From positions 1 through 34,174 of IMG/VR virus record IMGVR_UViG_3300030451_004293: a stretch of 34,174 nt of DNA, one strand, 5' to 3'. Below are positions 1,824 through 34,174 of the stretch, piece after piece; position 1 is the stretch's first letter; each line of letters opens with the position of its first letter. This DNA comes from a virus. Under the pieces are notes generated by a model. It was not told the DNA's origin and searched no databases. It saw only the letters and a list, made by a program, of their open reading frames with translations. The position numbers were made by a program, and so were the translations under genes.

Positions 1824-2108
1824 TTATTTAATTCCGTTAATGTGATCTACCTCAGGCAACCTCATTTTATTTCCAATGTTACCTTTAGTTACTTTACGTA
1901 TTTTTTTCTTTCTATCACGTCTTCTTTTTGACCGTGCTTTTTTAGCAGAATCAGAAGCATGATACTTGTTGTATTCATATTTATAATCGCGATTACCGTT
2001 TTTATATTTGCCATTAGCAGTAAACTTTTTACGCTTACTACCTTTCTTACGGCTTTTTTCGTTTTTACCGCGATTTGACTTATGTGATATTACTCTTAGC
2101 TCACTCAT
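1824..2108 (-). CDS. Basic protein resembling a permuted HNH-type phage protein (94 aa)
   Basis: A 94-residue, very basic protein whose ATG shares one base with the stop of the 2891-residue gene (TAATG). The centre (about residues 40-70: YKYEYNKYHASDSAKKARSK, then RRRDRKKK) resembles short phage proteins of the type YKxYHxSxxxKKxRAxRN that normally continue into an HNH-like end, VDHxxG followed by NLRVxSxxxNR. Here VDHINGIK lies at the extreme C-terminus, while an LRVISHKSNRG segment is at the N-terminus, so the order of the pieces looks swapped. I recall this family from marine phages and cannot verify it here. Nuclease activity is unproven. Confidence 0.6.
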   Translation of the reverse strand: MSELRVISHKSNRGKNEKSRKKGSKRKKFTANGKYKNGNRDYKYEYNKYHASDSAKKARSKRRRDRKKKIRKVTKGNIGNKMRLPEVDHINGIK

Positions 2109-5100: not shown

Positions 5101-8100
5101 CTTTACGAGCTCCAATAACATCACCATTGTAATCTACAATAGCTTCTGATATTTCTCCCAATGCTTTTAACTTATCCGCTGTTTTATCGTCATACAGCTT
5201 ACCTAATCCTTGCGGACCGCCTGATCTTTTTACAAAAGTTTTCTTTTTACCAAACTTAGAAAGATATTCTAAATAAGTATCAGGGGTTGTAACTTTTTCT
5301 CTTGCTATAAATAGCTCTGTATCTGGTGCAGCTTCAATCGTAACCTGCTGACCTAGCTGTTCATATTTATGTCCAAAAGGAATAAACTTTTCAGGGTTAG
5401 TTTTATTAACTCTATCAAGAGCGTAACCTAAATAGCCTTTTTCTCCGGTATAAGGTACATCATAATCAGATTGCATTATTTGAAATATTGCTTCATGACT
5501 TAGTGCATCAAAGCCTCCTTCATAAGCTACTTTGTCATAAGCATTAAAAGCTTCAGCCATTTTAGCAATTATTTCACCATTTGAATTATGATATGATGCA
5601 GTTAAATCTAATAACCGCACTATAGTTTCGTATCTATTTAGTATTTCAGCTCTTTCTGTTTCAGTTAAGTTTTCTTTACCTCTTGCTTGTAATTCGTTAT
5701 ATCTATTTAATACACTTTTATTTAAATCATTAAATACAAATCTAAGAGATGTAGGTAAGTAATCTTTAATTTTAGGCATTTGAACAACATTTCTACCACC
5801 ACCTAATAAATTTTCAATTGCAGTTTTTTCAGCCATTGCAACTGCATAAAACTTATCATTAAATCTTTGCTCTTGATATGAACTCCAAGTTTCTAATTTT
5901 TTAATATTAGTTTGCTTGTTTAATAGCTCAATATATTCTTCTCTTGATTGCTCACGTTCTAAAAATTCTTGCTGAGTTTGTATATCTTTTAAATCTTTTT
6001 GATTTTTTTCTTTTTCTTTTCTTAATTCAGTTGTATTTACAAGAAGTGGTTTAATTCTTGCAGCCATATTTTTATCTAAATATAATCCCGCAAACTTATT
6101 CATCACATCTCTTGTATTAGTGCCAAGTCCTAATCCGCTTTCTAAAGATTGGATAGCATGTTGTGTTTCATGAACTATGACACTTAAAACGTCTTTACCA
6201 GGCAAACCGCCCTCCATTAAATCAAATAAATCATTATCACTTGTTATGTTATATTCTTGCTTAAAAAATTTTAATAATTCTTCTCTTGACTTTGTTTTTA
6301 ATTCTGGGTCTAAATATATTTCAATACCTTTATTAATATTTGCAAAAACACCATGGGATTTTCTAGCTTGCTCTGTAAACTTGAAAGTAAGTTTCATATC
6401 AGCCAGCTCTGGGTAATATAATTTATATGGACCTTCTAATATTCTGCCAAGTGACATACTATAGTTTAAAGGACTAGCGGCGCTTGTTTTAGATATTACA
6501 TCTACTATATTTTCTAATGCGCCTTCAGTAAAATAACCTGGCCCTTCAAAAGACATCAGCTTACCAGTATTATTTAAATAGTAACCTGTTTCTTTATATA
6601 TATCAAACGGACTTTGATTATCTCTTCTCATTTCACGAGCAATCATTAAGTCATCATATATTTTTTCACCTGGCTTATGCTTTTTTACTATCGCACTTTC
6701 GCCTATAATATTAAAAGATTCATTTTCAGCTTTACCTTCTATAATAGGTAACTTTATTTCAGGACTGAATGATAATCTATTACCAGAACGAACAGCTCGT
6801 ACAATTTTATTTTTAAAAGAATTTAAATCAGATAAATCGCCAACAGTTATTTTTCTAAAGTCTGTACCTGTTTTTGTAAATAATTCAGTCATGGCATTGC
6901 CTATAAGGTTACTGTAAGCTGTTTTTAAGCCACGAGTAACGCTAGGAGTGAGTTGATCTTTAGCAAGTTCACTACCAAGCCATTCAGCCATTGTTTCGTT
7001 TAATATTAGCTTTTGGTTATCTGCTAATTGTTTAGCTAGTTCTACATCAGTAGGTATACCTTTTATTGGTTTTTTATAATTTTGTTGTGCCCACGCATAT
7101 TTTTCAGCATATTTTTTATTTGTTTTCATTTGAAACTCCAACTCTCTATATGCTTCGGGTGCTACAACTTTAATCATTTCTAATAATGGATGTGCAAGCT
7201 CATGAGCTAATATATAAGGAATATCTCTTGATTTTAGCGAAGAGTCTATAGACACATCAACATGAACTATATTGTCTTTACCTACAATAAAAGGATTTTT
7301 AGATTGTTTTAAAGCATCCGATTGTATTTGGCGTAAATCTTCTCTAAACTTTGTTTCGCTATACCCTTCTACACCATCTATTTTAGAACGGCCTTTATTA
7401 AATTTAGAAATAAGATTAGCGCGTTTTTCTGCTGCACGAGCATTAATAACTTTTGCAAGTGAATTAGCTTCAGTGTGAAATACAAACTTTACACCAATTT
7501 CTTTTGGCATAATATTTAAAAGCTTTTTAGCCACTTCAAGCCCTTTTAATAATTTAGGATTTCTTTGGTGTCTTTCTTTTTGTTTTTCAAATCCTATTTG
7601 ATTGTCAACAGTATTATTGCTTATTTCAACAACATTAAAGCTACCGCCTGTTTCTTTACCATCTCCAATAAATTCAGGTGTTTTATTATTTATATTTCTT
7701 TTTTCAGCTTCAAATATTTCTGTTGCTCGATCTTTATCAGCCTGTTTTATTTTTTTAACTTGACCTTTACTTAATCTATAATATTTACCATCAGCCCCTC
7801 TTCTTACAAAATATCCTGATAAATTATTATTACCTTCTATATAAGAATAGTCACCACCAGTACCACCGGTTTTACTTTGTCTTATTCTAAAATAAATAGG
7901 TCTTTCTTTACCAGACTCCATGTCAATAAAAGCTTGTTCTCTTATTATACCATATCGCTGTAAATATTTAGCTCTTGCAACTTCCTGGTCTTCTTGTCTT
8001 TTTAAATAATAATTATACATTTGCATTGGAGCATACATGCCACTTATTTTTTCAAAGTCTTTTTCTGTAAACTCAACAGCTTGTGAACCGTATAATTTTT

Positions 8101-13474: not shown

Positions 13475-13503
13475 CAAATATATTAATTATTTTTGTAAGA
13501 CAA
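13475..13503 (-). promoter_or_regulatory. Candidate Bacteroidota promoter before the internal-protein genes
   Basis: The minus strand reads TTG (13503-13501), 18 bases, then TATATTTG (13482-13475), matching TTG-N17-23-TAnnTTTG. The -33 element lies within the end of the 1857-residue gene. The predicted leader to the ATG at 13459 is short, about 8-9 bases, which lowers confidence. It would let the 220/665/2891 genes be transcribed separately from the tail genes. Confidence 0.5.
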
Positions 13504-16500
13504 TGGGCTGTAGCTCATGTCTACATTAACCGCATACAATTCTATTAAATCTTGATCTGTATCTAAATATGTATAGTCTGATGGAACAATAGAAAAATCA
13601 CATGTAGCAAATACACCTTTAGGTCTTTCTCCTTCTATACCTACACAAGGACTTAGTATTTTAACTAAGAAATATGTGCTATCAACAACAAAAGTTCCAT
13701 CAGCTTCAATAGTTACAGTTAACTCATTTCCACTAATACTTTCTACAGTTACAACTTTAGGCACAGATGGTGTTGAACCATCAAATAAAGCATAATTAGC
13801 TCCTGTAGTTATTAGTTGTGCAACTTCACTTTCTGTCATGCCAGAGCAGGTTAAAATTGTATCGCTTGTATATGTTACTGTAGATATGCCTTCATATTCT
13901 AAACTAACTTTTTCTACATAATCTTTAAATTCTTGTTTTGAACCTAAGGCTACTGGCATGTAATATACACCTTCTTTTCTTTGCCAATAGTGCTCTCCTC
14001 CTGGCGCATGCAATTTTCCTGCATCTGTTTGGAATGCAGCTAAAAAGTTTTCAGTTTTAAAATTACCTGGTGTCCATGGATATGTACCTTCTAAAGATAA
14101 ATTATTATATGTTTTTATCATTGAAGGTTCACCATTAAACACAAGCTCAATTTTTGAAGCATCTGAAGTTGTAGCCCCATAAAACTTATTAAAGTTAGCT
14201 TTTGTTTCATCTTGATTGTGCAAGTATAAATAACCGTTTTGAAAGCTATAAAAGTTTGTTCCTAAATTCATCATAAATTCAGGCTTATATGTATAGAATG
14301 AAACATATTTATTAAGGTCTTCATAAAAACCAACAGTTCTATTTAAAGCGGAGTCAAATACAGGCCGCTTCGTGCTTATTGCCTCACCGTAATAAATGTA
14401 TTCATTTGTTTGAGGATCAACACCTCCTACATGTGTATAAGATGAATCAAAGCCTCGATCACCTAAAAAAGCAACACGATCTCTAAAATAGTTTAAAAAG
14501 TAACTTTTCATACCATTTTGTGATATTAGTGTAAGTCCGTCTGTGCTTAGTCTAACCATACAACCTCTTAGCGGGTCAACAAAATATATTCTTCTACCAT
14601 ATTTTACTACACTTTCTGCTGCTTTAGCGGGGCCATAGTTTCCTGCATATGGTGTAGCAACAGATAAAATTTGATCGCTCAATGCTACATTACTATCACC
14701 CGTTGCTCCCATTAATAATGCTTTTTGCACCATCACTCTTGTTACTTTATTTGAGTGAAATAATATTAGGTTTGAGTCACTTTCTATAGCTCTTTCAATA
14801 TCGCCATATCCTATAGAGTATTCTTTAAAAGGTAAATCTATTAAATTAAACTCACTTAGTCCATTTACATTTGAAGAAGGTAAATACGGCCCAGAATAAT
14901 ATACTGTTGTATTTCTATGCTCTTCTTTAGCATATTGATTATATGTATGTTTTCTTCCTTTATTGTAAGAATCAGATTGTATAAAGTCATTAGCAAAATA
15001 ACTTTCAAAATTATTTGATGCGTAATTAACAACAATTCTTGAAACACGGCTATCAACTGTTCTTCTTCCTACTAAATAAACATCTCCTTTTGTAAAGTAT
15101 CCAGTAGCAGGTGTTCGGAGTTCTGTATTTGTATCATGGTTTTGATCAAGACCTGTACCGTCAGACGCATGATATTTATCTCCTGTATCTAAGTCTGTTT
15201 CAATAGGTATTTTATTTGAAAAACCATAGAAAAATATAGGTCCTTCTTCAGTTTGTTTTTTTGGATTATATATTTCAAATAATAGTTTATGATAATTACC
15301 ATCATTTGACGTACTAATGTCTTCCCATCTCCAACCAGCAACATCAGGCGAATTAAATGAAATCCAATAGCCAGCCATATATTTTTTTCTGTCTGCTGTA
15401 TTACTAAATTTAGCTTCATAAAATTGTCGTAAAGGATTACTTAAAGCAGGGTCAATATCACTTTCTTCAGTTTGATATTGATATACTTTTGCGTCTTGCA
15501 CGGGTACATCTATGTATTCTTCTACAGCACCTTCAGAGTTTCTAAGAAATCTAATTCTATCTCCTTCACCAAATACATAATCAATTAAAGGGTTATCAAT
15601 ACTTTTATAACTGTATTTTTCACCTTTAAAAGAGTTTAAATTAATATATATTTTTCTATCCCCTGAATCATTTATATTTTTTGCTACACGCTCTGAAGTA
15701 AACTGCAAAAAGTCTTTAACTGTAGTATTACCAGCATATACCCATTGATACCATTCGGCCCAATCAGGCGGCGTGTGATTTATACTCCATTTAAGTGAAG
15801 GCAAACCTAAAGCATCTGTTTGATCTGAATTAACGCCGTCTGTTGAAGCACTACCTCTTTCGGTTGGAAATTTTACATATGTTCTAGTCTTTGAAGACCT
15901 GTTTACAAATGAAGTTTGATTTCTATTATTACCATATACTATACCAAAATCATGAAATGCGCCAGTTTTAAATGTAGCTGTAGTTGAAGCAGCATCCATA
16001 ATACGAGAGTTTTGCTCAAACGACCATCTAGCCATCTTAGGTCTTGCTAAAAATCCTGTTTCATGACCAGCTACACTTGTTTGCCTAAAATGAATATATA
16101 ACATATTGCCTGGCTTACCTTGTCCAGCTGCAGGTGCATAGAAAGTACCATCTGCAAAAACTTCAGTAGTTCTCCAATTTCCAACGCCCCAATGAGTTCC
16201 TGAGCTTACTAAATGAGTACCAAGACTGGCAAAAGCATCGGCTATTGCATCTCCAAACTGCTGTTTAGTTGTTGTTTCATTTGTAACAGTAGCTGTAACA
16301 CCTTCCCATTGATGTCCTATACCAAATTTTTTATTGGGATTTTGGCCCGCTCCATATTTATAGGCAAATTTAAAACTACCACTAGATATAAATGTTGTAC
16401 CTACATCAACATAGCCACTACCATTTGTAGGTATATTACTTAAATCTAATTGCAATATTAATCTATTCTTTTTAAAATCATTTTCCCAACTACTTGACCC

Positions 16501-19056
16501 CCAACCATTTGTTCCGTCAATACCAGGCCATGACACTAGTGCATGACCGTTTTTAATACCAGGGCAAGGATCATCATAACTATATTTTGTCCCCGGTGAA
16601 TTTGGACTACCACTTAAGTTGGCTCCAATTGGTACTTGTTGATCATTTGATATAGCATTAGGAGATCCAAAGCTTGTATCGTTAGCCTCATAGTTATTAC
16701 CGGCATTTACATAAACCTGAAACTGAGGGCCAACATTAACAGAAAAATTAGTTGTTCCCGTTGGATTATCATTGTCATCAGAAGATTTATATTGAGCTTC
16801 AACGCTTGCATCAAAATGACATGCACTATCAAAACCATCAGTAACATTTGCATATATAATGCTACTATTATCTATTACTTCTTGCGTTTGCGCTTTGTGT
16901 GGTAGCCAATCATATAGCTTGTCTGCATTTCTGCTATCTAATACAGGATATATACCATCATTATAAAAATATACAACTAAATCATTAAAAGGAATGAAAT
17001 TAGTATTTACAGGATTTAATACTAACGGGTCTGTTGCCTCAGTAGTACCTGACATTGAAATACCGTCTAAAACAATTTGCGAAGTAACACTTCGAATATT
17101 AGGCTGTTCAGCATATTCATTTACGCATAGACTAGTATACCAAGTTACAGTATCAATTAATAAAAATGGATCTTTATTACTTTTACGAGCATATACTTCA
17201 ATAGCTTTTATATTTGAAGGAAAAGCATAAAGTCTATGCGCTATTCCTACATTACCCTGTGTATTTGTGCCATGAAGTCTTGGAGTTGTGTCTGAGCCAG
17301 GCAAACCGTTCTCGCCAGATTGATTCTCTGTTTGTAATCTATTCCCACCGTCATTTAACTTAGGTATAGTTATTTTTATTCTATTATGATGTGTTTGATC
17401 ATATGAACTTCCTGTAGCTGCATTTAAAGACATATGTGCAGGTATCACTACGTCTGATATAGGCGCTAATGCTGAAGCTTCTTCATCGTCGTATAAATAT
17501 CTATAAGAAAACTGCCAAACGCTCCCAAACACATCGTTTTTCTTTTTTGTAGAATCACTTAAATACTCATATGTTGCTCTATCTCTAGGGCCTCTTTTAT
17601 GAGCATTTATATATTGCTCTTTTATTTGTCTATTGTTATTATTATATGCTTCTGGCCAATATCTTGTTATAGGATCAAAATCATAACTATATCGCGCTGC
17701 AGTATTTTGATTTTCATTAGCTTCAATATATTTTATTACCCTATATGTAGTACCACCTACTGTTGCACTAGAATTTATAAACTCATGGTTTAATACAATT
17801 TTTTTTCCATCGGAGCTTACGTGTGTAACTTTAAAATATCCGTTATATTCATGATATACAAATGGAAAGTCTTGTTCAACGTAAATAATATCTCCTGGCT
17901 CATATCCAAAATTTGAATCACTTACAAGAGTTAACTTATCCTGTAAGCCATTTTCATTGCCTTCAAATAAAACGTTTTGAAATTCTTCGCTAGAATATGT
18001 AGCCGAGTGATTATCATAAAATCTTTTACCATAAATCTCTCTCCACTGCAAACCTCTCATGCTTTTAGCTATATTAAGCCTTTTAGGAGTTTCAACACCA
18101 TCTGTCCAGGCTAAATATTCACTACCTATAACATTTAAACTATGTATTTTTCTATTTTTAGGAAAGTTTAATGCTGCAGTAGTACTAGATTGCTTTTCTT
18201 TATATACAACATTAATAGTGTCTAAAGATTCTTTATACTGTAATACATAATCATATAATACTGAACCACCAGATATTTGAGTTACAAGCCAATATATTGT
18301 TCTTTCAACTTCGTCGTTTACAGCACCTACACATTTATATACAGGAGGAGAAGCTAATACTGGTGTATATCGTAAATTTCTTTTGCCTTGGTGTAATGAA
18401 ACAGCATCGGAAAATTGTAAAGGGTCTTGAGCAGGGCTAGTATGGTTGTCTAACCAAACAGGACTAGCTAAATTAAATCCTGGCTGTAAACATTGTATAA
18501 CAATATTATTATCATTTTGTGTAACTTCTATATGACTAGCTAGTGTTGCATCAGCAGCAATATCTGCTTGGATAGCTTGCGTTATTAAACGGGTTGCTAC
18601 AATTTTATGCAATTGCGCATTTGATACATTTTCAGTAAACTCAGCTATAATATTATTATACTCAGTTTCAGTTACAATATGTGTATTTGGTGTAGGCTCA
18701 TAAGTAGTGGTCCCATCACTTAAATTATAATCTAATTGAAACTGAATTTCTTTATATTGTTCATCTCCCTCGCTATCAAAATAATAACCCCATTGTGGTT
18801 GCCATTGTGAAACATTAATTGTTAATTCACCACCAGCTGGATCATCTGAGCTAAAAGAAAATAAAGGAGCACCTTCATTAGCATTTATATTTCCTTTCTG
18901 TATATGTCCTGGTACAGGTGTAATAACACCTAATGTGCCGTCATCACCATGTAAATTTTTTATATTAGTAGCATCTCTATACTGATCGTCAGGTATTAAA
19001 CGCTGATCAATATCTTTGTTCATACCACCTTTAAATGTGCGTTTATCTATAGCCAT
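13483..19056 (-). CDS. Tail nozzle/stabilisation (muzzle-like, T7 gp12-like) protein (1857 aa)
   Basis: A very large structural protein of 1857 residues, rich in Asn, Thr, Tyr, Gly and Asp, with beta-strand alternation throughout. The N-terminus (KRTFKGGMNKDIDQRLIPDD, then QYRDATNI) follows the pattern FxGGMNxDxDxRLxPxxxYxxAxN, typical of phage stabilisation/tubular tail proteins: the T7 gp12 class and the muzzle class of crAss-like phages. Around residues 1470-1560 there is a propeller-like region (SNLILFHSNKVTRV, YGRRIYFVDPLRGCMVRLS). It follows three connector-like genes, as expected for the protein forming the distal short tail. No signal peptide or transmembrane segment is present. It likely forms a hexameric tail tube. 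No separate fibre gene is visible, so receptor contact may lie here or outside the window. Confidence 0.82.
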   Translation of the reverse strand: MAIDKRTFKGGMNKDIDQRLIPDDQYRDATNIKNLHGDDGTLGVITPVPGHIQKGNINANEGAPLFSFSSDDPAGGELTINVSQWQPQWGYYFDSEGDEQYKEIQFQLDYNLSDGTTTYEPTPNTHIVTETEYNNIIAEFTENVSNAQLHKIVATRLITQAIQADIAADATLASHIEVTQNDNNIVIQCLQPGFNLASPVWLDNHTSPAQDPLQFSDAVSLHQGKRNLRYTPVLASPPVYKCVGAVNDEVERTIYWLVTQISGGSVLYDYVLQYKESLDTINVVYKEKQSSTTAALNFPKNRKIHSLNVIGSEYLAWTDGVETPKRLNIAKSMRGLQWREIYGKRFYDNHSATYSSEEFQNVLFEGNENGLQDKLTLVSDSNFGYEPGDIIYVEQDFPFVYHEYNGYFKVTHVSSDGKKIVLNHEFINSSATVGGTTYRVIKYIEANENQNTAARYSYDFDPITRYWPEAYNNNNRQIKEQYINAHKRGPRDRATYEYLSDSTKKKNDVFGSVWQFSYRYLYDDEEASALAPISDVVIPAHMSLNAATGSSYDQTHHNRIKITIPKLNDGGNRLQTENQSGENGLPGSDTTPRLHGTNTQGNVGIAHRLYAFPSNIKAIEVYARKSNKDPFLLIDTVTWYTSLCVNEYAEQPNIRSVTSQIVLDGISMSGTTEATDPLVLNPVNTNFIPFNDLVVYFYNDGIYPVLDSRNADKLYDWLPHKAQTQEVIDNSSIIYANVTDGFDSACHFDASVEAQYKSSDDNDNPTGTTNFSVNVGPQFQVYVNAGNNYEANDTSFGSPNAISNDQQVPIGANLSGSPNSPGTKYSYDDPCPGIKNGHALVSWPGIDGTNGWGSSSWENDFKKNRLILQLDLSNIPTNGSGYVDVGTTFISSGSFKFAYKYGAGQNPNKKFGIGHQWEGVTATVTNETTTKQQFGDAIADAFASLGTHLVSSGTHWGVGNWRTTEVFADGTFYAPAAGQGKPGNMLYIHFRQTSVAGHETGFLARPKMARWSFEQNSRIMDAASTTATFKTGAFHDFGIVYGNNRNQTSFVNRSSKTRTYVKFPTERGSASTDGVNSDQTDALGLPSLKWSINHTPPDWAEWYQWVYAGNTTVKDFLQFTSERVAKNINDSGDRKIYINLNSFKGEKYSYKSIDNPLIDYVFGEGDRIRFLRNSEGAVEEYIDVPVQDAKVYQYQTEESDIDPALSNPLRQFYEAKFSNTADRKKYMAGYWISFNSPDVAGWRWEDISTSNDGNYHKLLFEIYNPKKQTEEGPIFFYGFSNKIPIETDLDTGDKYHASDGTGLDQNHDTNTELRTPATGYFTKGDVYLVGRRTVDSRVSRIVVNYASNNFESYFANDFIQSDSYNKGRKHTYNQYAKEEHRNTTVYYSGPYLPSSNVNGLSEFNLIDLPFKEYSIGYGDIERAIESDSNLILFHSNKVTRVMVQKALLMGATGDSNVALSDQILSVATPYAGNYGPAKAAESVVKYGRRIYFVDPLRGCMVRLSTDGLTLISQNGMKSYFLNYFRDRVAFLGDRGFDSSYTHVGGVDPQTNEYIYYGEAISTKRPVFDSALNRTVGFYEDLNKYVSFYTYKPEFMMNLGTNFYSFQNGYLYLHNQDETKANFNKFYGATTSDASKIELVFNGEPSMIKTYNNLSLEGTYPWTPGNFKTENFLAAFQTDAGKLHAPGGEHYWQRKEGVYYMPVALGSKQEFKDYVEKVSLEYEGISTVTYTSDTILTCSGMTESEVAQLITTGANYALFDGSTPSVPKVVTVESISGNELTVTIEADGTFVVDSTYFLVKILSPCVGIEGERPKGVFATCDFSIVPSDYTYLDTDQDLIELYAVNVDMSYSPLSYKNN

Positions 19057-24804: not shown

Positions 24805-25530
24805 TTACGATGCTACATGCGTCGCGGAAATATTTTTGGTGTCATAATCTAAAATATGTATACCATCTTCTTCCGCGGAAATAATAGCATCAAACAGTTG
24901 TTGTTCTAAAATATATAAATCTTCAACGCTAGATAAATAAGAAGCCGTTATTGCAACTTCTGATATACTTCCTGTATTTCCACTTGATGTAGGAATTCTA
25001 ACTCTATCTATTTCGGATACATCTATAGTGCCTATAGTAAATTTTATATGACTTGTGCCACTACCATAATATAGTTTTACTTCAGTAGCATCACATGTTA
25101 CTTTTGTTATTTGGTCAAAAGGTATAGTATATATTACACCTTTATTATAATTTTGAACAAACGGGTCATAAGTACCTGAACTATAGTCATTGCCTTTATC
25201 ATCTTCAAGTTCAGTTGTAATACCATCAAAGTTTACAATTCTATCATCTGCTAAATCTAAATTTTGTATGCGTATTATAGTATCAACAGCTTCTGAACTT
25301 AAAGCTCCAATTAAAAAGCCTTCATTTTTTAATTGCTCAAATACATGAAATCTTAAATTCGAAAGCTCTCTTTCGCCACTAGCTGGTGTATACTCTACTT
25401 CTAAATCGTCTTGCTCATACCTAGGAACTAAAATTTTATAAGTTGTTCCTACAGTCAAAGCTCCAACAGCACCTACGTTTTTTTGTACAACAGGTACAGC
25501 ATCTACATATTTAATTTGTAATAATCCCAT
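24805..25530 (-). CDS. Virion protein between portal and scaffold (241 aa), unknown
   Basis: A 241-residue protein with mainly beta pattern (GALTVGTTYKILVPRYEQDD; KVTCDATEVKLYYGSGTSHI) and a C-terminal helix (SSVEDLYILEQQLFDAIISA). Its ATG shares one base with the stop of the portal gene (TAATG), so production is probably coupled to portal. It is slightly acidic and has no signal peptide or membrane segment. Position between portal and scaffold suggests a head protein such as a decoration or head-fibre protein, but nothing diagnostic is visible and I do not recognise the family. Confidence 0.6.
   Translation of the reverse strand: MGLLQIKYVDAVPVVQKNVGAVGALTVGTTYKILVPRYEQDDLEVEYTPASGERELSNLRFHVFEQLKNEGFLIGALSSEAVDTIIRIQNLDLADDRIVNFDGITTELEDDKGNDYSSGTYDPFVQNYNKGVIYTIPFDQITKVTCDATEVKLYYGSGTSHIKFTIGTIDVSEIDRVRIPTSSGNTGSISEVAITASYLSSVEDLYILEQQLFDAIISAEEDGIHILDYDTKNISATHVAS
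24808..24824 (-). terminator. Possible weak terminator at the end of the 241-aa gene
   Basis: On the minus strand CGACGC, loop ATGTA, then GCATCG form a 6-bp stem with one C-A mismatch, overlapping the last codons of the 241-residue gene, followed within 8 bases by TTTTTT (24800-24795). The short imperfect stem makes this a tentative call. Confidence 0.3.
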
Positions 25531-27980
25531 TACATCATCATATCAAGTCCACCCATACGTTCTGTTTGCCCTTGTTCTTCTGCAGGCAATTCTGTAACTA
25601 GTCCTGAATCAGGTGCCATAGGATCAACGTCAGCCATAGCTTCTGGAGATTCAGCCGCTTGTTGTTTTAAAGCCATTTTACCTGCATTAGCAGTTTCTTG
25701 CACTTTATTGCTACCCTCAACTTTTATTTTTTCTTTATCAGCTAGCCCTTGATTTTCTGATTCTTTAAGTTTCATCTTTAAATCATATTCAAGTTGTAAT
25801 CTAGCCATTTCATTTTGATGCTTTAAATTTTCTATATCCATGGCAGTTTTTGCTTCAAGTTGTTTTTCTGCCTGGATTTTTTGCATCTCAGCTTGAGCCT
25901 TTTGAGCTTGAGCTTGTTGTTGCGCTTGTTGTTGTTGTCGCACTTGTGCTTGAGCTTCTTCTTGATATTTTTTACGTCTTATAATTAAACATTGATTAGC
26001 TAACTTTGTATTTTTTATAGAGCGTATAAATATAGCATCTTCTAAACGTAATTCTTTTTGTTGAATTGACATTTGAATATTTTGCTCAAACTTAGCACGC
26101 TCTTCTTCATCAGGCGCCATAGTTATTTTAAGACCAAATTCATTAATATGAAAGTCTTTACCCATAGATATACTTTCCATAACAGCTTCACCGAGCATGG
26201 CAATATATTTCTTTTTAAGTGGGGAATACTTAATTAAATCTTGTAATCTTAAAATACAGTGTTCAGCAACTCTAGTTGTAATACTAAGCTCACCGTTATT
26301 AATATGTTTGGTAGCATTATTTGAAGCCATAAGAGCAAGCTTTTGCGTACCTATTAATGCTTTATTAGAAGGTTGTGTAGCATCTCTCGCTTCATTAATA
26401 CCAGTTACATCTCTTATAATTTGTAAATTATGATTATAAATAGCTATTAAACTATTCATATCTCTACCAATACCATTTTCTAATTCTTGTATTGGTATAG
26501 GTCCTGATATACCGCCTTCGTCATCTTGTCTTCTATAATATATATTACCAGTTTGATCATATATATCTTGTAACTCTAATGGTGTAAATGTAGCACCGTC
26601 ACCTTTCCCTACATTCTCTAATGCGCCTAATTCAAATGCAGCTCCTTTAGGTCTAGCCTTAGCTATAACTAATTGCATTTTAAGATGCGCTAATTGTATT
26701 TGGTCTGCAAAAGGCATCATTCTTTCAACTAATGATTTACTAGTTGCATTGTGCACATTAGGTATATAAACTATATAAGGACATGGTGTATCATCTAATG
26801 TAGACTTTTTACGTACCATATTTTCAAGAGGACCATAATTAATTACATGCTCTGTACCTACAATATAAATTCCTTTATAATAAATAGAAGCCGGTTGATT
26901 AGTTACTTCTCTCTTAAACTTTGATTTTTTTGGCGGCTTATATCCGTCTTTTTTACGGTATATATTATTGTATCCGTATTTATTTTCTTTCTTTTCATAT
27001 ACTATATTATAATTAGATTTAAAAACAGCATCTAATACCTCTATAGTAAATGAATCGTATTCATATTCTTCATAACCTAATTCTGAATTATAAGAACTAG
27101 TAGCACTAAAAGAATAAGGATTATTATTTTTACCTGCGTAACCTCTAGCAATATGTTCAAATTCTTTTTCTGATATTTCACCAGGCTTGCATAGTCTTTT
27201 TATTTCACCTATAGACATTCTTTTTACTTCACCAGCATGATATAAATCTTTACAATCTGGTGATTTACTATAAGAATGAATAAAATTAGCAGGGTCAACA
27301 TACTTAATTTTTATGCCTCTAGCTCTATCTGTTTCCGTTTTAGAAACAGCCATACCGCAAACAGTAAGGTCTCTTAATAGTTGTTGTCTTATTTCGTGGT
27401 AGTCATTTAATTCTTTTATAGCAGTTAATGCTTGCTCCATTGCAATTTCATTTTTTTGCTTATAATTTAATGACATATATAACTCAAGCTCCTCGCTAGT
27501 TTCAGGTATGTATTCTTCTTGAGATTGAGTATTACCTGCTAAACGGTTGAACTCTTTATTAAAGTCTTTATTTATCATATTAACAAACAAAGAATTTCTA
27601 TCGCTTATTCTTTTGTTTAAAGAAGTACGGTCAATAGCAGAAACTTTCATTTCATATTCTTGCTCTGTTAAACCATTTACAATAACATCTACAAATTTTG
27701 GAATAATACTTAAATTACTCCAATCTAAATTCATATATGATTGGTCACCAGAATTGTTTAATAAAGATTTATACTTTTCAACCGATTGTGTACCACTTGC
27801 ATATTGTCGTGCTGTATTAAATCTACGCTTTCGCCCGGCTACAGAATTTTGGCCTTGACCAGACCATTCGTGATACATTTTTTTAAAATACTTAAGACCG
27901 TACTCTTTTTTGTCTTTTACCTTTTTAGGGGCAAAAGGCGATGGATAACCTCCTATTTCTTTTATTTGTTTATTTCTCAT
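25530..27980 (-). CDS. Portal protein (816 aa)
   Basis: An 816-residue protein directly after the large terminase, overlapping it by four bases (ATGA). Size and architecture fit large portal proteins of crAss-like and related phages: an alpha/beta body with MNLDWSNLSIIPKFVDVIVN and GLTEQEYEMKVSAID, a stem/wing region, and a long C-terminal helical barrel or coiled coil rich in Gln, Ala, Lys and Glu (about 665-765, including QQQQAQQQAQAQKAQAEMQK). The tail ends in MMM. It should form the dodecameric DNA gate at one capsid vertex, contacting TerL and the connector proteins. No single signature is decisive, but length, neighbours and the C-terminal coiled coil agree. Confidence 0.82.
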   Translation of the reverse strand: MRNKQIKEIGGYPSPFAPKKVKDKKEYGLKYFKKMYHEWSGQGQNSVAGRKRRFNTARQYASGTQSVEKYKSLLNNSGDQSYMNLDWSNLSIIPKFVDVIVNGLTEQEYEMKVSAIDRTSLNKRISDRNSLFVNMINKDFNKEFNRLAGNTQSQEEYIPETSEELELYMSLNYKQKNEIAMEQALTAIKELNDYHEIRQQLLRDLTVCGMAVSKTETDRARGIKIKYVDPANFIHSYSKSPDCKDLYHAGEVKRMSIGEIKRLCKPGEISEKEFEHIARGYAGKNNNPYSFSATSSYNSELGYEEYEYDSFTIEVLDAVFKSNYNIVYEKKENKYGYNNIYRKKDGYKPPKKSKFKREVTNQPASIYYKGIYIVGTEHVINYGPLENMVRKKSTLDDTPCPYIVYIPNVHNATSKSLVERMMPFADQIQLAHLKMQLVIAKARPKGAAFELGALENVGKGDGATFTPLELQDIYDQTGNIYYRRQDDEGGISGPIPIQELENGIGRDMNSLIAIYNHNLQIIRDVTGINEARDATQPSNKALIGTQKLALMASNNATKHINNGELSITTRVAEHCILRLQDLIKYSPLKKKYIAMLGEAVMESISMGKDFHINEFGLKITMAPDEEERAKFEQNIQMSIQQKELRLEDAIFIRSIKNTKLANQCLIIRRKKYQEEAQAQVRQQQQAQQQAQAQKAQAEMQKIQAEKQLEAKTAMDIENLKHQNEMARLQLEYDLKMKLKESENQGLADKEKIKVEGSNKVQETANAGKMALKQQAAESPEAMADVDPMAPDSGLVTELPAEEQGQTERMGGLDMMM

Positions 27981-30058
27981 CGCATTCTTATATTACTTGC
28001 CTTGTTAAATGTTCTAACAAAAGGCTTAAAGTCAACTTTTTTTACTTTCTTTTTAAATTTATGGGTAGCACCTATTAGTGCTAAAGCAGACGCTATAGCA
28101 GCGTCATACTTTGTTCTATTATCTATTTCAAATACACTCCAATCTTTTAATAAGCCATTTAAATAACAATTACCCATTGTACCATCGGCTTTAAATCCTA
28201 CATGATCGTGTATATATGATTCGATTAAATCACCCATTAAATTTATAACTTCTGCGCTAGCAGTAGGAATACCAGGCGTCATTTTTTTATTAGAGTTTGG
28301 TGCCTTATTATATGTATATTCGGGTCTAGACATTAAATAGCCTGCAAACCCATTTTCACGAAAATAGTTAATAATTCCGACTTTATTGTTTTCAATTAAA
28401 ATTAATGCACCGTAGAAAACCACGGCTTTTAATACATCTTCGTAAAATATACTTGCTTTTGGTGGTCTGTTTATATACTCGCAACAAAAAATTTGGCTAA
28501 CGTTTTCAAAAGGATTAAACCTTTTATAAATATACAAAGCACCATCAGACCTACGATTATCAACGGTGTAATCATGATCAAAAGGGTCACAGCCGCCAAC
28601 ATAATTAATAGCATTACCAGGGCTCTTAATTCCTTTTTTAATAACTGTTTTGTTTCTGTCATCTTTATCTGGCAAGTATGTTATTTTAAATTTACCATTT
28701 TTATTAGGCACCCACTTAACTTTATCTTTTTGTTCAGGATTTTCCCATACAAAATTACCAGTAACAACTAATTCAGGGTGTTCCTCATTAAAATCCATTT
28801 GTTGAAATATTTTTTCAACATCAAATGTAGATTTAGAAGCATCTGCTCTAAAAGCTTCTTCTTCAGTAAAAGGAAACTGTCTTTTAAATTCGTTTAAATC
28901 AATATTATTACCTTCTAAAGCTTTTCTTCTATTTGATAAATATTCTTTAGACCCTATTTCAATAGGCATTTCATCAATGCCCATAACAGCTTTTTTAGGT
29001 TTATTTATAACGCTTTGCCCATATATATCAATAAACCCTTCTAAGTTATCAAAAGCTGGTATAAACAATGAATACAACCCAGAAACAGTTTGTCCGTTTG
29101 CATCTCTATTCGTTACATCAGAATTATTATAAATTTCTTTATATTCTTCACCACCCATATCCTGTGCGTTGGCTGTTGTTCCCATCATGCACTTACCCAC
29201 AATTTTTCTACCAAGCAATAAACAAGTTCGTGTAACTCGCCAATTCTTTTTTATACTATTTGGCTTTACCCATTTAGCACTTTCATCATGTATTAATAAT
29301 TTTAGCTTTTGGCCATCATATGAGTTTGAACCTGTATTTCTCCAATTTATTGTAGAGTTTAAAGATTCGTCTACAGAAGTGTATTTATTTTTTTTGGTAA
29401 TTTTTTGAGCAGGTGTTCTAAAAGCTAATTCCATACGCGGGTTTGAACTACCATCTTGTATAGGCTTAAAGAACCAAGGATAATTTCTAAATATATATAC
29501 GGCTTTATCCGTAAATAAATCCTGAGCATCTTTACCAGTTTTTGATAAAATACCATTTACAGTATTTTCATGGCTTGAAGCTATGTTTACAATTTCACTT
29601 GCAGAGCAATAACTAAAACCACTACGTCTATTTTTTAAATAGCATATACCATAACATCTATAATCTAGCTTACACGCTTCCCAAAAAATAAATAAGCGAC
29701 GATTTGCGTCTCTGTATTCAGGGTATCCAACATCTATCTTAGACCATTGTATATACATATAATGGCTTCCTGTAATATAAGTAGGTTTACCATTATTTAA
29801 AAACCATATACCTTCTCTCCTGCGCTTAAACTCTTCTATTATGAAGTCTTCGTATTTATCAATATTATCTCTCGTACATAATGGGTCAAGCTCTTGTCTA
29901 ATCCAGTACTGGTCTTTTTTACTTTTATCATAAAATAGCATTTTTTTACGAGGAGGAGCCTTAGGCAAACCAATACGAAGATTTTGTATAGTTACAATAT
30001 CTCCCTTAGTTTTATTAGGACATATCCATACAACATCTTTTTGTTTATCGTACCCCAT
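27977..30058 (-). CDS. terL: Terminase large subunit, packaging ATPase/nuclease
   Basis: A 693-residue packaging motor. ATPase part: an atypical Walker A-like segment LKNRRSGFSYCSASE (about 141-155) in place of a GKS/T loop, Walker B KLLIHDE with Asp258-Glu259, and a coupling motif MMGTTAN at 291-297. Nuclease part: YVGGCDPFDHD with Asp491, Asp494 and Asp496; LILIENN with Glu556; and YDAAIASALAL with Asp652, which together form the RNase H-like metal site. It packages DNA through the portal encoded next (four-base overlap). The start overlaps the preceding 106-residue gene by 14 bases. Full length compared with relatives of 600-750 residues, with both domains intact. Confidence 0.93.
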   Translation of the reverse strand: MGYDKQKDVVWICPNKTKGDIVTIQNLRIGLPKAPPRKKMLFYDKSKKDQYWIRQELDPLCTRDNIDKYEDFIIEEFKRRREGIWFLNNGKPTYITGSHYMYIQWSKIDVGYPEYRDANRRLFIFWEACKLDYRCYGICYLKNRRSGFSYCSASEIVNIASSHENTVNGILSKTGKDAQDLFTDKAVYIFRNYPWFFKPIQDGSSNPRMELAFRTPAQKITKKNKYTSVDESLNSTINWRNTGSNSYDGQKLKLLIHDESAKWVKPNSIKKNWRVTRTCLLLGRKIVGKCMMGTTANAQDMGGEEYKEIYNNSDVTNRDANGQTVSGLYSLFIPAFDNLEGFIDIYGQSVINKPKKAVMGIDEMPIEIGSKEYLSNRRKALEGNNIDLNEFKRQFPFTEEEAFRADASKSTFDVEKIFQQMDFNEEHPELVVTGNFVWENPEQKDKVKWVPNKNGKFKITYLPDKDDRNKTVIKKGIKSPGNAINYVGGCDPFDHDYTVDNRRSDGALYIYKRFNPFENVSQIFCCEYINRPPKASIFYEDVLKAVVFYGALILIENNKVGIINYFRENGFAGYLMSRPEYTYNKAPNSNKKMTPGIPTASAEVINLMGDLIESYIHDHVGFKADGTMGNCYLNGLLKDWSVFEIDNRTKYDAAIASALALIGATHKFKKKVKKVDFKPFVRTFNKASNIRMR

Positions 30059-30365
30059 TATTTTTTGCCATTTTTTCTACAAAGCCTTGTTTAAATGCTT
30101 TTTTATCCTCAGATATTTGATCAAGATAATCTGCATCTTCTGCTAATTGTTTTTCTAACTTAGCAATACCTTCTAATATTTCTTGTGCGTCTAAAAAAGC
30201 TTTTTTCTTACTGTCTAAAGCATTTTTTCTTTTTTCATCTAACACCTCGTCTGATATAGGCTTTTCAACATCATTAATTAATGTTTCAATAGCCATTTTA
30301 CCGGCGTCTATAAGCTTTTGAAGCGTACTATTTATATATTGCTTATTATCCATTTTTAATAGCAT
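30045..30365 (-). CDS. Small helical protein in terminase-small-subunit position (106 aa)
   Basis: A 106-residue, almost wholly helical, highly charged protein (EILEGIAKLEKQLAEDADYL; DEKRKNALDSKKKAFLDAQE) directly upstream of TerL and overlapping it by 14 bases. Position suggests the small terminase subunit that recognises DNA ends, but no helix-turn-helix is obvious. Alternatively it is a chaperone-like or scaffold helper. Two starts are possible: ATG at 30365 (overlapping the co-chaperonin stop by 20 bases) or ATG at 30353, giving MDNKQYINST and an overlap of 8 bases; the second has the A-rich leader usual here. Confidence 0.6.
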   Translation of the reverse strand: MLLKMDNKQYINSTLQKLIDAGKMAIETLINDVEKPISDEVLDEKRKNALDSKKKAFLDAQEILEGIAKLEKQLAEDADYLDQISEDKKAFKQGFVEKMAKNNGVR

Positions 30366-30948
30366 ATATTGAGTGTGTACGCACTCTGTAAACTACATCA
30401 CCTCCAGGCATTTCTATATCATAGTCTCTACCCTTAGCAAACATTATAGTGTCGCCTACTTTACCTCCTCCGTCAATAAACGTGTCATCTGCTACTAAAA
30501 CTTTGCCTTCACCTTCTTCGTATCTTTTTGTATATCCTGTATATATACCACTATCAGTAACTTCTTCTTCGTCGCACTTTTTAGTTATAATACAAAAAGG
30601 CCCTATAGTTTTATAACTACCGTCAGGCTTAATACTCATATACATCATACCTACATCCAAAAAAAAGTAAAATGAATTACATTCATTTCCATCATCAAAT
30701 TCAATTGGCTTTGCTTCTTGAGTTGCAAAATGATGTATTAACACTTGATCGCCAACATCAATGTTTTTATTTCTTTTAGACTTTTTAAGAGGTTCTTTAA
30801 TTATTGTAGCTATCGTTTGAGCGTTTTGTAAAGGATTAAATGTATTATCAACATAAATTTCTTTTCCGCCTAAATATCTTTTTTTGTGTAAAGAATCTAC
30901 TCTAATTATATATTTATCAATTGATGTAGCATTATTAGGAATTTTCAT
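30346..30948 (-). CDS. Tandem GroES-like (Cpn10) co-chaperonin (200 aa)
   Basis: A 200-residue protein that appears to contain two GroES-like domains. Domain 1 (about 11-105) starts DKYIIRVDSLHKK and carries VGDQVLIHH at 65-73. Domain 2 (about 116-198) starts GPFCIITKKCDEEEVTDSGI, has EGKVLVADD at 147-155 (the position of GEVVAVGPG in GroES), KVGDTIMFAKGRDY at 163-176, and closes with VYRVRTHSIYAIKNG, like the YLIMxxxDILAIV end of GroES. Two Cpn10 domains in one chain resembles chloroplast Cpn20. It probably replaces host GroES and works with host GroEL to fold capsid or other large virion proteins, as T4 gp31 does. Identification is from pattern matching only; a mobile-loop GGIVL-type contact is clearer in domain 2 (SGIYTG). 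Confidence 0.72.
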   Translation of the reverse strand: MKIPNNATSIDKYIIRVDSLHKKRYLGGKEIYVDNTFNPLQNAQTIATIIKEPLKKSKRNKNIDVGDQVLIHHFATQEAKPIEFDDGNECNSFYFFLDVGMMYMSIKPDGSYKTIGPFCIITKKCDEEEVTDSGIYTGYTKRYEEGEGKVLVADDTFIDGGGKVGDTIMFAKGRDYDIEMPGGDVVYRVRTHSIYAIKNG

Positions 30949-31213: not shown

Positions 31214-31603
31214 TTATTTTTTTGAAGATCCTCCGAAAAAGAAATCTATTATAGTATTTACTTTGCTTGACATAGCACCAAATACTGTAGATATAAAACC
31301 AATTTCATAATCAGACAATTCTAGCTGATTCATTACAAAGTACTTAAACATAAAATAAGATATAAAAAAGTAAGCTGATGTAAATATTACAGCTAATACT
31401 TTTTGTATAAAACCATCGCCTGAAAACATAGTTCTAGCGCTGCTTCTATCCTGCACCTCAAGTGCAAACATATCTTTTTCATGGTCTTGTACAACTTTTT
31501 GAAATTGTTGTTTTAATTGTTCTCTTTCTTCGTCCGTAGTAACAACTTCATCTATTATTGTAGATGCTTGCCCTACTAATGATTTAATTATATTTTTTAT
31601 CAT
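31214..31603 (-). CDS. Holin, 3-TM / GTA-holin-like family (129 aa)
   Basis: A 129-residue protein with the architecture of GTA_holin_3TM-type holins: an amphipathic N-terminus (IKNIIKSLVGQAS), a charged helix (DEEREQLKQQFQKVVQDHEK), the typical DRSSARTMF motif at about 52-60, two hydrophobic segments (VLAVIFTSAYFFISYFMF at about 69-86; IGFISTVFGAMSSKVNTIID at about 101-120) and a GGSSKK end. It would form pores in the inner membrane at the end of infection so that the endolysin reaches peptidoglycan. Its ATG overlaps the endolysin stop by four bases (ATGA), pairing the two genes. Confidence 0.85.
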   Translation of the reverse strand: MIKNIIKSLVGQASTIIDEVVTTDEEREQLKQQFQKVVQDHEKDMFALEVQDRSSARTMFSGDGFIQKVLAVIFTSAYFFISYFMFKYFVMNQLELSDYEIGFISTVFGAMSSKVNTIIDFFFGGSSKK

Positions 31604-32067
31604 AATGCTTTTATATTATCTTTTGCGTGTCTATATGCTGTTTTACCTTTGTCATTTTTATATGCTTCTAAAACTTGTCTTCTATTAGAATCACAAAATG
31701 ATATATGAATCCAGGCAAAATCAAACTCATTTATCATTTGATCAAAATCTAAACCTGAGTTTAGTATCCAATCATACATAATTTTGTTATTCATTTCGCC
31801 GTCTTTCCAAAACTGTAAATCCAACGCTTGGCCTTTGCAGTGTTGTGAAGTACGACTTCCACCAATAGCTTTGTTGAGTTTAGGGCTGCGATAACCACTG
31901 CTAATACGAATAGGACCAATAGCATCGCGCATAGGCTGTATAAGTTCTGTAATGAGCAACTGCATTGCTTGAAGATGTTCTTTATTAGGCTCATTGCTAA
32001 TTCCTAACCTTTTTGCTGTATTACTTTTTGTTATTTCAGATAATACAAAGTTTTTACTTAATCTCAT
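31600..32067 (-). CDS. Endolysin: peptidase M15 (D-Ala-D-Ala carboxypeptidase/endopeptidase-like)
   Basis: A 155-residue zinc peptidase of the M15A type. The metal ligands are visible: His76 and Asp83 in the segment SRTSQHCKGQALDLQFW, and His121 in WIHISF. The substrate-side motif SSGYRSPKLNKAIGG (about 57-70) precedes them, as in the family. It would cut peptide stems or cross-links in host peptidoglycan. There is no signal peptide, so release depends on the holin encoded directly after it. The N-terminus LSKNFVLSEITKSNTAKRLG is typical of phage M15 endolysins. The start overlaps the stop of a 37-residue gene (ATGA). Confidence 0.92.
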   Translation of the reverse strand: MRLSKNFVLSEITKSNTAKRLGISNEPNKEHLQAMQLLITELIQPMRDAIGPIRISSGYRSPKLNKAIGGSRTSQHCKGQALDLQFWKDGEMNNKIMYDWILNSGLDFDQMINEFDFAWIHISFCDSNRRQVLEAYKNDKGKTAYRHAKDNIKAL

Positions 32068-32803: not shown

Positions 32804-33904
32804 TTAAAATATTACATAATTAAGGCCAACGCTAAAGTTGTGCCATTTGCGATTCCAGTATTTATTATACCTTCCTTCTACAAATATACCCAAACTTTTA
32901 TTAAATCTATATCCGTAAATTAAACCTGCCGAATAATCAATCCATTGACTACCTTTATAATTATAATACGAATATACGTTTTTTGTGTCAATATGATAAG
33001 GCATAATATTACCCCAGCTATGAAACCAAAAGTCTTTTGTAAAATGGTAATAGTCAAAACCTAAAACCGTAGAGTATTCTACTATATTAGATATAGAATT
33101 TCTTTGGGCTTCTACATAATCATCTATTACTTGTGGTATAACAACCTCTTCCCACACTTCTTGACTAGTTGCTACTACCTCTCCATTGGGTGCTAAATAC
33201 TGTCCATCTAATGTTATATTGTATCCCTCTTGCAATGCCAAGTATGTATAGTGTAATGTCCCATTGTCCAGCACCCAGTCTGCCAGGGGGTCAAACCCGT
33301 ATGGTTCTGCAAGACGCTGTACTGCTCCTATATTTACAGATAGCTTACCTGTCTCGCCTATTTTTAATCTAAATCTTTCTGATGCTTCAAAGTATTTTAT
33401 GTCTGCAAAACCATCTTCTAAATACTCTACTTTGCTTATAAATTTATCTGCAATATATCTTACAAAATGATGTTGGTTAGTATAGTTTATTCCTAACCGG
33501 CGTACAAAATCAGCCTCGAATAAATACTCAAAGCCATCGACTCTACCAATTGTGGCAGCATCACTGTATGAATTTTCTGTACCATTATAAAAAGTAAGAG
33601 CCCTGTTTTCATAACCAAATCTTTTTATTTTTCTTATACCTATAGAAAAAGTATAATCAAATGGAGTTTCTATTATGCTTTCTTCTAATGTGCCTGAAGT
33701 AACCGACCATATTTGGTCATTACCTAATGATGTACCTCCATTGACTGCAGCATAAACAGTAGAGTATTTAAATATTTTATGTAATCCTTGTGCATTACAA
33801 GATGTAGAAAATAGAGTGAAAAGTATAATATAAAATACAACTAACACCAACCAAAATGATAAGTACGCAACATCAGGTGTAAAAAATTCTTTTAATCTTT
33901 TCAT
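32804..33904 (-). CDS. Outer-membrane beta-barrel protein, phage-encoded (366 aa)
   Basis: A 366-residue exported protein. A long N-region is followed by a hydrophobic segment (about 16-33, YLSFWLVLVVFYIILFTLFS) and a flavobacterial-style cleavage site TSCNAQ|G near residue 39. The rest shows amphipathic strands with aromatic girdles and turn-rich loops, ending in hairpins YSAGLIYGYRFNKSLGIFVE and WHNFSVGLNYVIF; the final Phe is the usual outer-membrane-protein C-terminus recognised by BAM. Its ATG overlaps the stop of the T9SS-type gene by four bases (ATGA), so the two are coupled. Likely role: modifying the host surface (superinfection exclusion, permeability) or assisting outer-membrane lysis; both are inference. 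Known families not recognised. Confidence 0.75.
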   Translation of the reverse strand: MKRLKEFFTPDVAYLSFWLVLVVFYIILFTLFSTSCNAQGLHKIFKYSTVYAAVNGGTSLGNDQIWSVTSGTLEESIIETPFDYTFSIGIRKIKRFGYENRALTFYNGTENSYSDAATIGRVDGFEYLFEADFVRRLGINYTNQHHFVRYIADKFISKVEYLEDGFADIKYFEASERFRLKIGETGKLSVNIGAVQRLAEPYGFDPLADWVLDNGTLHYTYLALQEGYNITLDGQYLAPNGEVVATSQEVWEEVVIPQVIDDYVEAQRNSISNIVEYSTVLGFDYYHFTKDFWFHSWGNIMPYHIDTKNVYSYYNYKGSQWIDYSAGLIYGYRFNKSLGIFVEGRYNKYWNRKWHNFSVGLNYVIF

Positions 33905-34174
33905 TTCTTTAATACTTTTGTTGTGCTAGTGTTACCATTATATGTTACGCTAAAGCTATATATACCAGAAGGTAATAAACTTACGTCTAGTTGGTTTAGC
34001 CCTTTATGAGTTTGATTTTCTTTTATTTTAATAATAAGTTTTCCTGATATATCATATACCTTTATACCTACCGGTCCGTTTGTTAATATATTTAATATAT
34101 TATTCATAGGATTTGGATACATAACTATATTGTGTCCTCTAAGCAAATCTCTAGTATCTAACTCACTATCACCA
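33901..34174 (-). CDS. C-terminus of a T9SS-exported protein (type A sorting domain, partial)
   Basis: An open frame from the right edge to a stop at 33901. The visible ~90 residues (from GDSELDTRDLLRGHN) form a textbook T9SS type A sorting domain: MYPNPMNNILNIL, GIKVYDISGKLIIKI, then LDVSLLPSGIYSFSVTYNG and TTKVLKK at the very end. In Bacteroidota such domains direct a periplasmic protein through the Type IX secretion system to the cell surface and are removed by the sortase PorU. The N-terminal cargo lies outside the window. A TTG start at 34146 is possible only formally; the frame stays open upstream, so the gene is longer. It overlaps the barrel gene by four bases. Confidence 0.88.
   Translation of the reverse strand, partial: GDSELDTRDLLRGHNIVMYPNPMNNILNILTNGPVGIKVYDISGKLIIKIKENQTHKGLNQLDVSLLPSGIYSFSVTYNGNTSTTKVLKK

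Follow-up and report, generated by a model that had tools for sequence, protein, structure and literature searches.

The window analysed here, a 34,174-base IMG/VR virus record whose main genes all lie on the minus strand, breaks off inside a gene whose product ends in a sorting domain of the type IX secretion system (T9SS). The locus raises the question whether a phage encodes cargo for the secretion system of its host and, if so, what purpose the exported protein serves. The frame of 90 aa is open at its 5′ side, where the contig end cuts the gene, as an earlier note on this DNA had observed. It scored 54.5 bits against Por_Secre_tail (PF18962; cut-off 27, E 1.4e-14) and 49.6 bits against TIGR04183 (cut-off 23, E 2.9e-13). 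The latter match extends over residues 18-90 and covers the entire model to its last residue. Across the whole record, PF18962 gave a single match (E 5.9e-16); in 14 control genomes it gave none above the cut-off, and only Bacteroides ihuae yielded any signal. Both profiles bear out the T9SS type A sorting domain that the earlier note had read in a phage gene and had proposed for a profile check. The ATGA overlap was also present: plus-strand bases 33901-33904 read TCAT, so that the TGA ending the cargo gene shares bases with the ATG of the gene that follows. This overlap couples the cargo gene to a barrel gene, followed by two further envelope genes, and not directly to the endolysin (Table 1). 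Endolysin, holin and terminase do follow, but the operon does not end with them as had been supposed; the run continues past the terminase through the window. Judged from its sequence, the gene very probably encodes a phage-borne cargo of the host T9SS.

Table 1. Features of the window, from the contig end inwards.
Feature	Position	Strand	Basis or remark
T9SS cargo gene, 3′ end, 90 aa	33901..34173	-	open frame; 5′ part beyond contig end
T9SS type A C-terminal sorting domain (CTD), residues 18-90	33904..34122	-	PF18962, TIGR04183
Predicted outer-membrane beta-barrel, 366 aa	32804..33904	-	AlphaFold model; ATGA overlap with cargo stop
Predicted inner-membrane protein, 94 aa	32517..32801	-	one TM, then coiled-coil-like stretch, both by inspection
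Secreted thioredoxin-fold protein without CxxC, 111 aa	32179..32514	-	fold by profile
M15 peptidase endolysin	31600..32067	-	PF08291 61.8 bits; phrog_894 endolysin
Holin-like protein	31214..31603	-	phrog_3427 holin, E 3.5e-6
GroES/Cpn10-like gene	30346-30948	-	just upstream of terminase gene
TerL (terminase large subunit)	27977..30058	-	phrog_6681 549 bits; backbone marker
Portal protein	25530..27980	-	phrog_6547 494.6 bits
crAss-type muzzle (tail) protein	13483..19056	-	PF25731 E 3.6e-16, PF25729 E 2.1e-7

After the cargo gene, the window continues with the barrel, the 94 aa and the 111 aa genes, the M15 endolysin, the holin-like and GroES-like genes, TerL, portal and structural genes. The nearest relatives of TerL are the environmental podovirus ctfjg026, the elemo Flavobacterium phages, Maribacter phage Panino and Cellulophaga phi38:1 (Pervagoviridae), followed by crAss-like phages. 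TerL, portal and muzzle proteins are all of the crAss/Pervagovirus kind. The backbone is classed as a crAss/Pervagovirus-type podovirus because of the TerL relatives and the large tail gene matching the crassvirus muzzle. The host phylum is probably Bacteroidota; a search for tRNAs that could inform on the host found none in the window. The position of the GroES/Cpn10-like gene upstream of the terminase gene is common to the window, elemo and Panino phages. A protein of 2891 aa (2108-10783, minus strand) contains the metalloprotease-like motifs HELAH and HETQH, and no Pfam domain above cut-off. Its distant relatives adjoin or stand near the barrel gene in three other loci (L085, L089, L098).

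Full-length relatives of the truncated cargo gene are present in IMG/VR. Among 104 distinct loci, the cargos comprise 601-1325 aa (median 771) and carry 4-22 copies of the repeat GCTDxxAxNYNxxANxDDGSC, mostly spaced 26 residues apart. The proteins contain about 5% Cys and are acidic, with a median of 115 D+E versus 17 K+R. A notch-repeat-like segment (WLGDGFCDDG...) occurs at the N-terminus in 44 of these loci, including close relatives of the window's gene. The window copy lacks its N-terminus; a hydrophobic leader followed by Q was recognised by inspection and pattern in 37/37 non-redundant full-length cargos. Such a leader corresponds to the Q-rule signal peptide of Bacteroidota (PMC10653852). 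The model of one cargo (L004) is of moderate confidence (mean pLDDT 67), with a C-terminal domain folded as a seven-strand, Ig-like beta-sandwich. This domain superposes on the solved T9SS CTDs of NucA (8glk_D, TM 0.77), RemA (8gl6_D, 0.74) and mirolase (8qb1, 0.68), and the solved CTDs matching this moderate-confidence model include translocon-bound ones.

The full sorting domain is not kept everywhere, since five diverged cargos (L156, L163, L169, L172, L089) end only in a shortened tail, 'TDILGR..LLFxIYxDGSVxKK', to which Pfam gave no match. The tail is possibly a minimal T9SS signal. The cargo repeat has a wider distribution. Putative virion proteins of 1554-1960 aa with 4-7 cargo-type GCTD repeats are encoded upstream of the module in three loci (L010 2-5881, L023 780-5441, L035 2-5317). 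A virion structural protein of Synechococcus phage S-CAM3 holds two copies (L096 3572-5119), and the repeat is also present in a host T9SS-type protein. In phage records, cargo homologues were limited to short repeat matches in this cyanophage. PF18962 was not found in four related phage records (three isolates and one environmental genome). Weak sorting-domain matches occur in two huge phage records of 635 and 642 kb (LR745206.1 298423-298608, E 1e-3; LR756502.1 325931-326095, E 0.3).

The overlapping barrel gene was modelled with about 12 long strands at moderate quality (mean pLDDT 71, pTM 0.63). Its best solved-structure matches are outer-membrane barrels in general and none in particular, and its closest viral model is the unnamed protein A0A516LKJ4 (TM 0.66-0.70). 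The family had no match in Pfam, PHROG or NCBIfam. The T9SS helper barrels PorV and PorP/SprF did not match it in NCBIfam or Pfam and were absent among the best structure matches listed. In the family of the 111 aa thioredoxin-fold protein, the CxxC active site is absent from 20/20 aligned members, while the VPT cis-Pro loop is conserved in these 20. Because CxxC is lost and the VPT loop kept, this protein probably binds rather than oxidises. An active thioredoxin that folds the Cys-rich cargo was rejected, CxxC being absent. The leaders of the family follow the Q-rule in most members, and a few end in ACSQ. From the predicted features of the cargo, barrel, thioredoxin-fold and 94 aa proteins, all four products are predicted to be located in the envelope. 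A known defence system was considered and rejected: PADLOC gave no match for any of the four.

Cargo, barrel, one-TM coiled-coil protein and secreted thioredoxin fold without CxxC form a fixed four-gene module, which the earlier note had missed. The barrel is encoded in at least 565 IMG/VR contigs. Conservation was counted in 77 distinct loci in which the barrel gene is flanked by 5 kb or more on both sides. All 77 contain the thioredoxin-fold gene, 76 the 94 aa gene and 70 a cargo with CTD. The remaining seven encode a cargo-like repeat protein, which bears the shortened tail in five, matches the sorting domain weakly in one and is cut by the end of the locus in one. The gene order varies, with the cargo first, as in the window, the cargo last or the small genes first. 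CTD matches were obtained in 33 contigs (35 record-level searches), and 32 of the 33 have exactly one. Such conservation argues for a joint function of the cargo with its three partners, and the four genes are likely to act together. Promoter and terminator sites at the module were no more frequent than in shuffled sequences. One contig of 95,981 bases (IMGVR_UViG_3300030116_004105; L021, L030) holds two different module copies, one near each end; they may represent concatenated strains or terminal redundancy.

The carriers are uncultured, mostly marine viruses, probably of Bacteroidota. No barrel homologue was detected by tblastn in 50,697 phage records. In 84,980 species genomes only four matches were found, on MAG contigs of 3.8-63 kb. 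Two of these MAGs, both of Bacteroidota, encode SprA, a linkage by binning that does not prove the host. Most module backbones carry the TerL family of the window, often with the module within a few kb of TerL. Others are phages of 120-155 kb whose major capsid protein is Gp23; three of these also encode Terminase_6N. The barrel of one Gp23-bearing phage (L071) is 81% identical to that of the window; its nearby genes outside the module had no matches to the window. In the barrel tree this copy falls inside a fully supported clade with podovirus copies, and the tree requires three switches of backbone type, two or more of them imposed by supported branches. The module is judged to move between crAss/Pervagovirus-type podoviruses and T4-like phages. 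CTD, rest of cargo and barrel are read as being under purifying selection, with median dN/dS of 0.31, 0.13 and 0.10, respectively; these values are rough because dS is near saturation. The TerL matches of three genomes (G003, G005, G011) are interrupted in frame by stop codons, either TGA or both TAG and TAA, which may reflect introns, inserts or recoding.

The module stands beside lysis genes well beyond the window. Of the 23 contigs that encode an M15 endolysin, 22 have it no more than 8 kb downstream of the CTD, versus 4.0 expected under uniform placement; the count includes related and hence non-independent contigs and one approximate CTD position. The grouping with endolysin and holin points to late expression of the module. 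We infer export of the cargo by the host T9SS as a direct reading of its leader and CTD; we also infer the assembly, timing and purpose of the module.

Taken as a whole, the explanation that we favour, with moderate confidence, is a T9SS-exported cargo displayed with three envelope partners on the infected cell, where it would block adsorption or superinfection. The cargo would be exported by Sec via its Q-rule signal peptide, and its C-terminal domain would be captured by the host T9SS translocon. After crossing the outer membrane, the protein would be cleaved or anchored at the surface. It would work together with the barrel in the outer membrane, the thioredoxin-fold protein in the periplasm and the coiled coil in the inner membrane. 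The infected cell would then bear an assembly that is made by the phage, spans the envelope and presents a long, acidic, cysteine-rich repeat protein at the surface. By masking or blocking receptors, the displayed cargo could spare the infected cell superinfection and keep new virions from being wasted on the lysing cell and its remains. Adsorption blocking as the purpose is put forward tentatively, and ranks ahead of outer-membrane opening at lysis and of adhesion. It gains some support because the cargo repeat also occurs in putative virion proteins, the cyanophage virion protein and the host T9SS-type protein; a copy on the cell surface could compete with virions for shared partners. The sequence gave no sign of receptor binding.

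Rupture of the outer membrane agrees with the lysis-gene neighbourhood roughly as well as adsorption blocking does. The module could be the outer-membrane part of a lysis system, which breaks or opens the outer membrane after the M15 endolysin has acted and replaces the spanins. Two-component spanins combine a small inner-membrane protein with a periplasmic coil and a secreted partner, and adjoin endolysin and holin. In the window, holin and endolysin directly follow the module and no spanin was recognised. The proximity of the endolysin in 22/23 contigs and the predicted envelope location of all four proteins also agree with a role in lysis. Unlike spanins, the module has a thioredoxin-fold partner without an evident lipobox, mostly with a Q-rule leader in place of an o-spanin-type lipoprotein signal, and adds a barrel and a surface cargo. 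Surface export of a repeat protein of 600-1300 aa is unnecessary for membrane breakage, and no PF08291 endolysin was found in 12/35 contigs, though many of these are fragments. A lysis function is regarded as unlikely, if closest to the preferred one.

Somewhat less likely again is a surface adhesin by which infected cells or lysis fragments stick to particles, algae or neighbours, which would aid spread or protect the cell. Long acidic, cysteine-rich repeats would suit an adhesin, as would the occurrence of the repeat in host T9SS proteins. One relative (L075 9037-12519) carries a glycogen-binding module, AMPK1_CBM, barely above cut-off; most cargo relatives searched in Pfam have no recognised adhesin domain, and adhesion alone leaves the three partner genes and the lysis-gene neighbourhood unexplained. 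A secreted enzyme is very improbable. The earlier note had suggested a depolymerase, and an endoglucanase and a glycoside hydrolase are among other phage-encoded T9SS cargos (PMC7468147). Seven full-length relatives searched in Pfam lacked any enzyme domain that scored above cut-off, which makes a depolymerase unlikely, and repeats take up much of the cargo length. That a host gene or a chimeric contig has been mistaken for a phage gene can practically be dismissed, although the contig end cuts the gene and sorting domains are common in Bacteroidota genomes, because the gene and its neighbours recur in the same order in dozens of independent contigs, among phage genes and usually once per contig, and the barrel has only the four MAG-contig matches among species genomes.

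A phage-encoded T9SS cargo has precedents. In Cryophage, genes were described whose products carry type A sorting domains and are presumed to use the secretion system of the host, and exclusion or competition was proposed (Bellas 2020; PMC7468147). These products, an endoglucanase, a glycoside hydrolase and a PA14 protein, vary between strains and were termed a unique occurrence (PMC7468147). The module shares with Cryophage the phage-encoded type A cargo, and differs in having one repeat-protein family within a fixed four-gene set, with a barrel found in at least 565 contigs. The available part of a 2019 report on crAss-BACON phage cluster 2 from the gut describes T9SS sorting-domain genes upstream of head genes, and one BACON protein carrying the domain (PMC6949934). 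That part refers to BACON carbohydrate-binding repeats, in contrast to the GCTD repeats of the module cargo, and does not report a module of barrel, coiled coil and thioredoxin fold (PMC6949934). The idea of a phage-encoded T9SS cargo is sound; since both reports came earlier, it is not the first of its kind, a point that the earlier note had overlooked. The open literature searched for T9SS cargos in phages yielded only these two. According to it, the module of four genes appears to be new, as do its wide occurrence, its transfer between podoviruses and T4-like phages and its association with lysis genes.

The host substrates RemA and NucA resemble the cargo in leader, C-terminal sorting domain and matching CTD fold. 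Unlike them, the cargo is phage-encoded and tied to three phage envelope genes. The Llp of phage T5 is a phage-made superinfection-exclusion lipoprotein, encoded by an early gene, which keeps phages from adsorbing without productive outcome to infected cells or to fragments of lysed ones (PMC9586334). Llp is small and acts at the periplasmic face, whereas the cargo is proposed to be a large surface protein delivered by host secretion. Llp is also made early, whereas the cargo gene lies among late genes, which counts against exclusion.

The T9SS is a main route to the surface in gliding and polymer-degrading Bacteroidota, and phages depend on its surface products. Mutations in gld and spr led to resistance against phage V156 in Flavobacterium columnare (PMC9233685). 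Possibly, a mobile four-gene apparatus of podoviruses and T4-like phages of Bacteroidota spans the envelope and coats infected cells via the host T9SS, which would make it a class of display machine not described before. Abundant in environmental contigs and absent from the phage records searched, the module is therefore a concrete target for isolation, and its fixed gene set is a testable lead on three protein families without known function. A phage module using the T9SS would tie phage success to that system and let phages reshape the surface of the infected cell.
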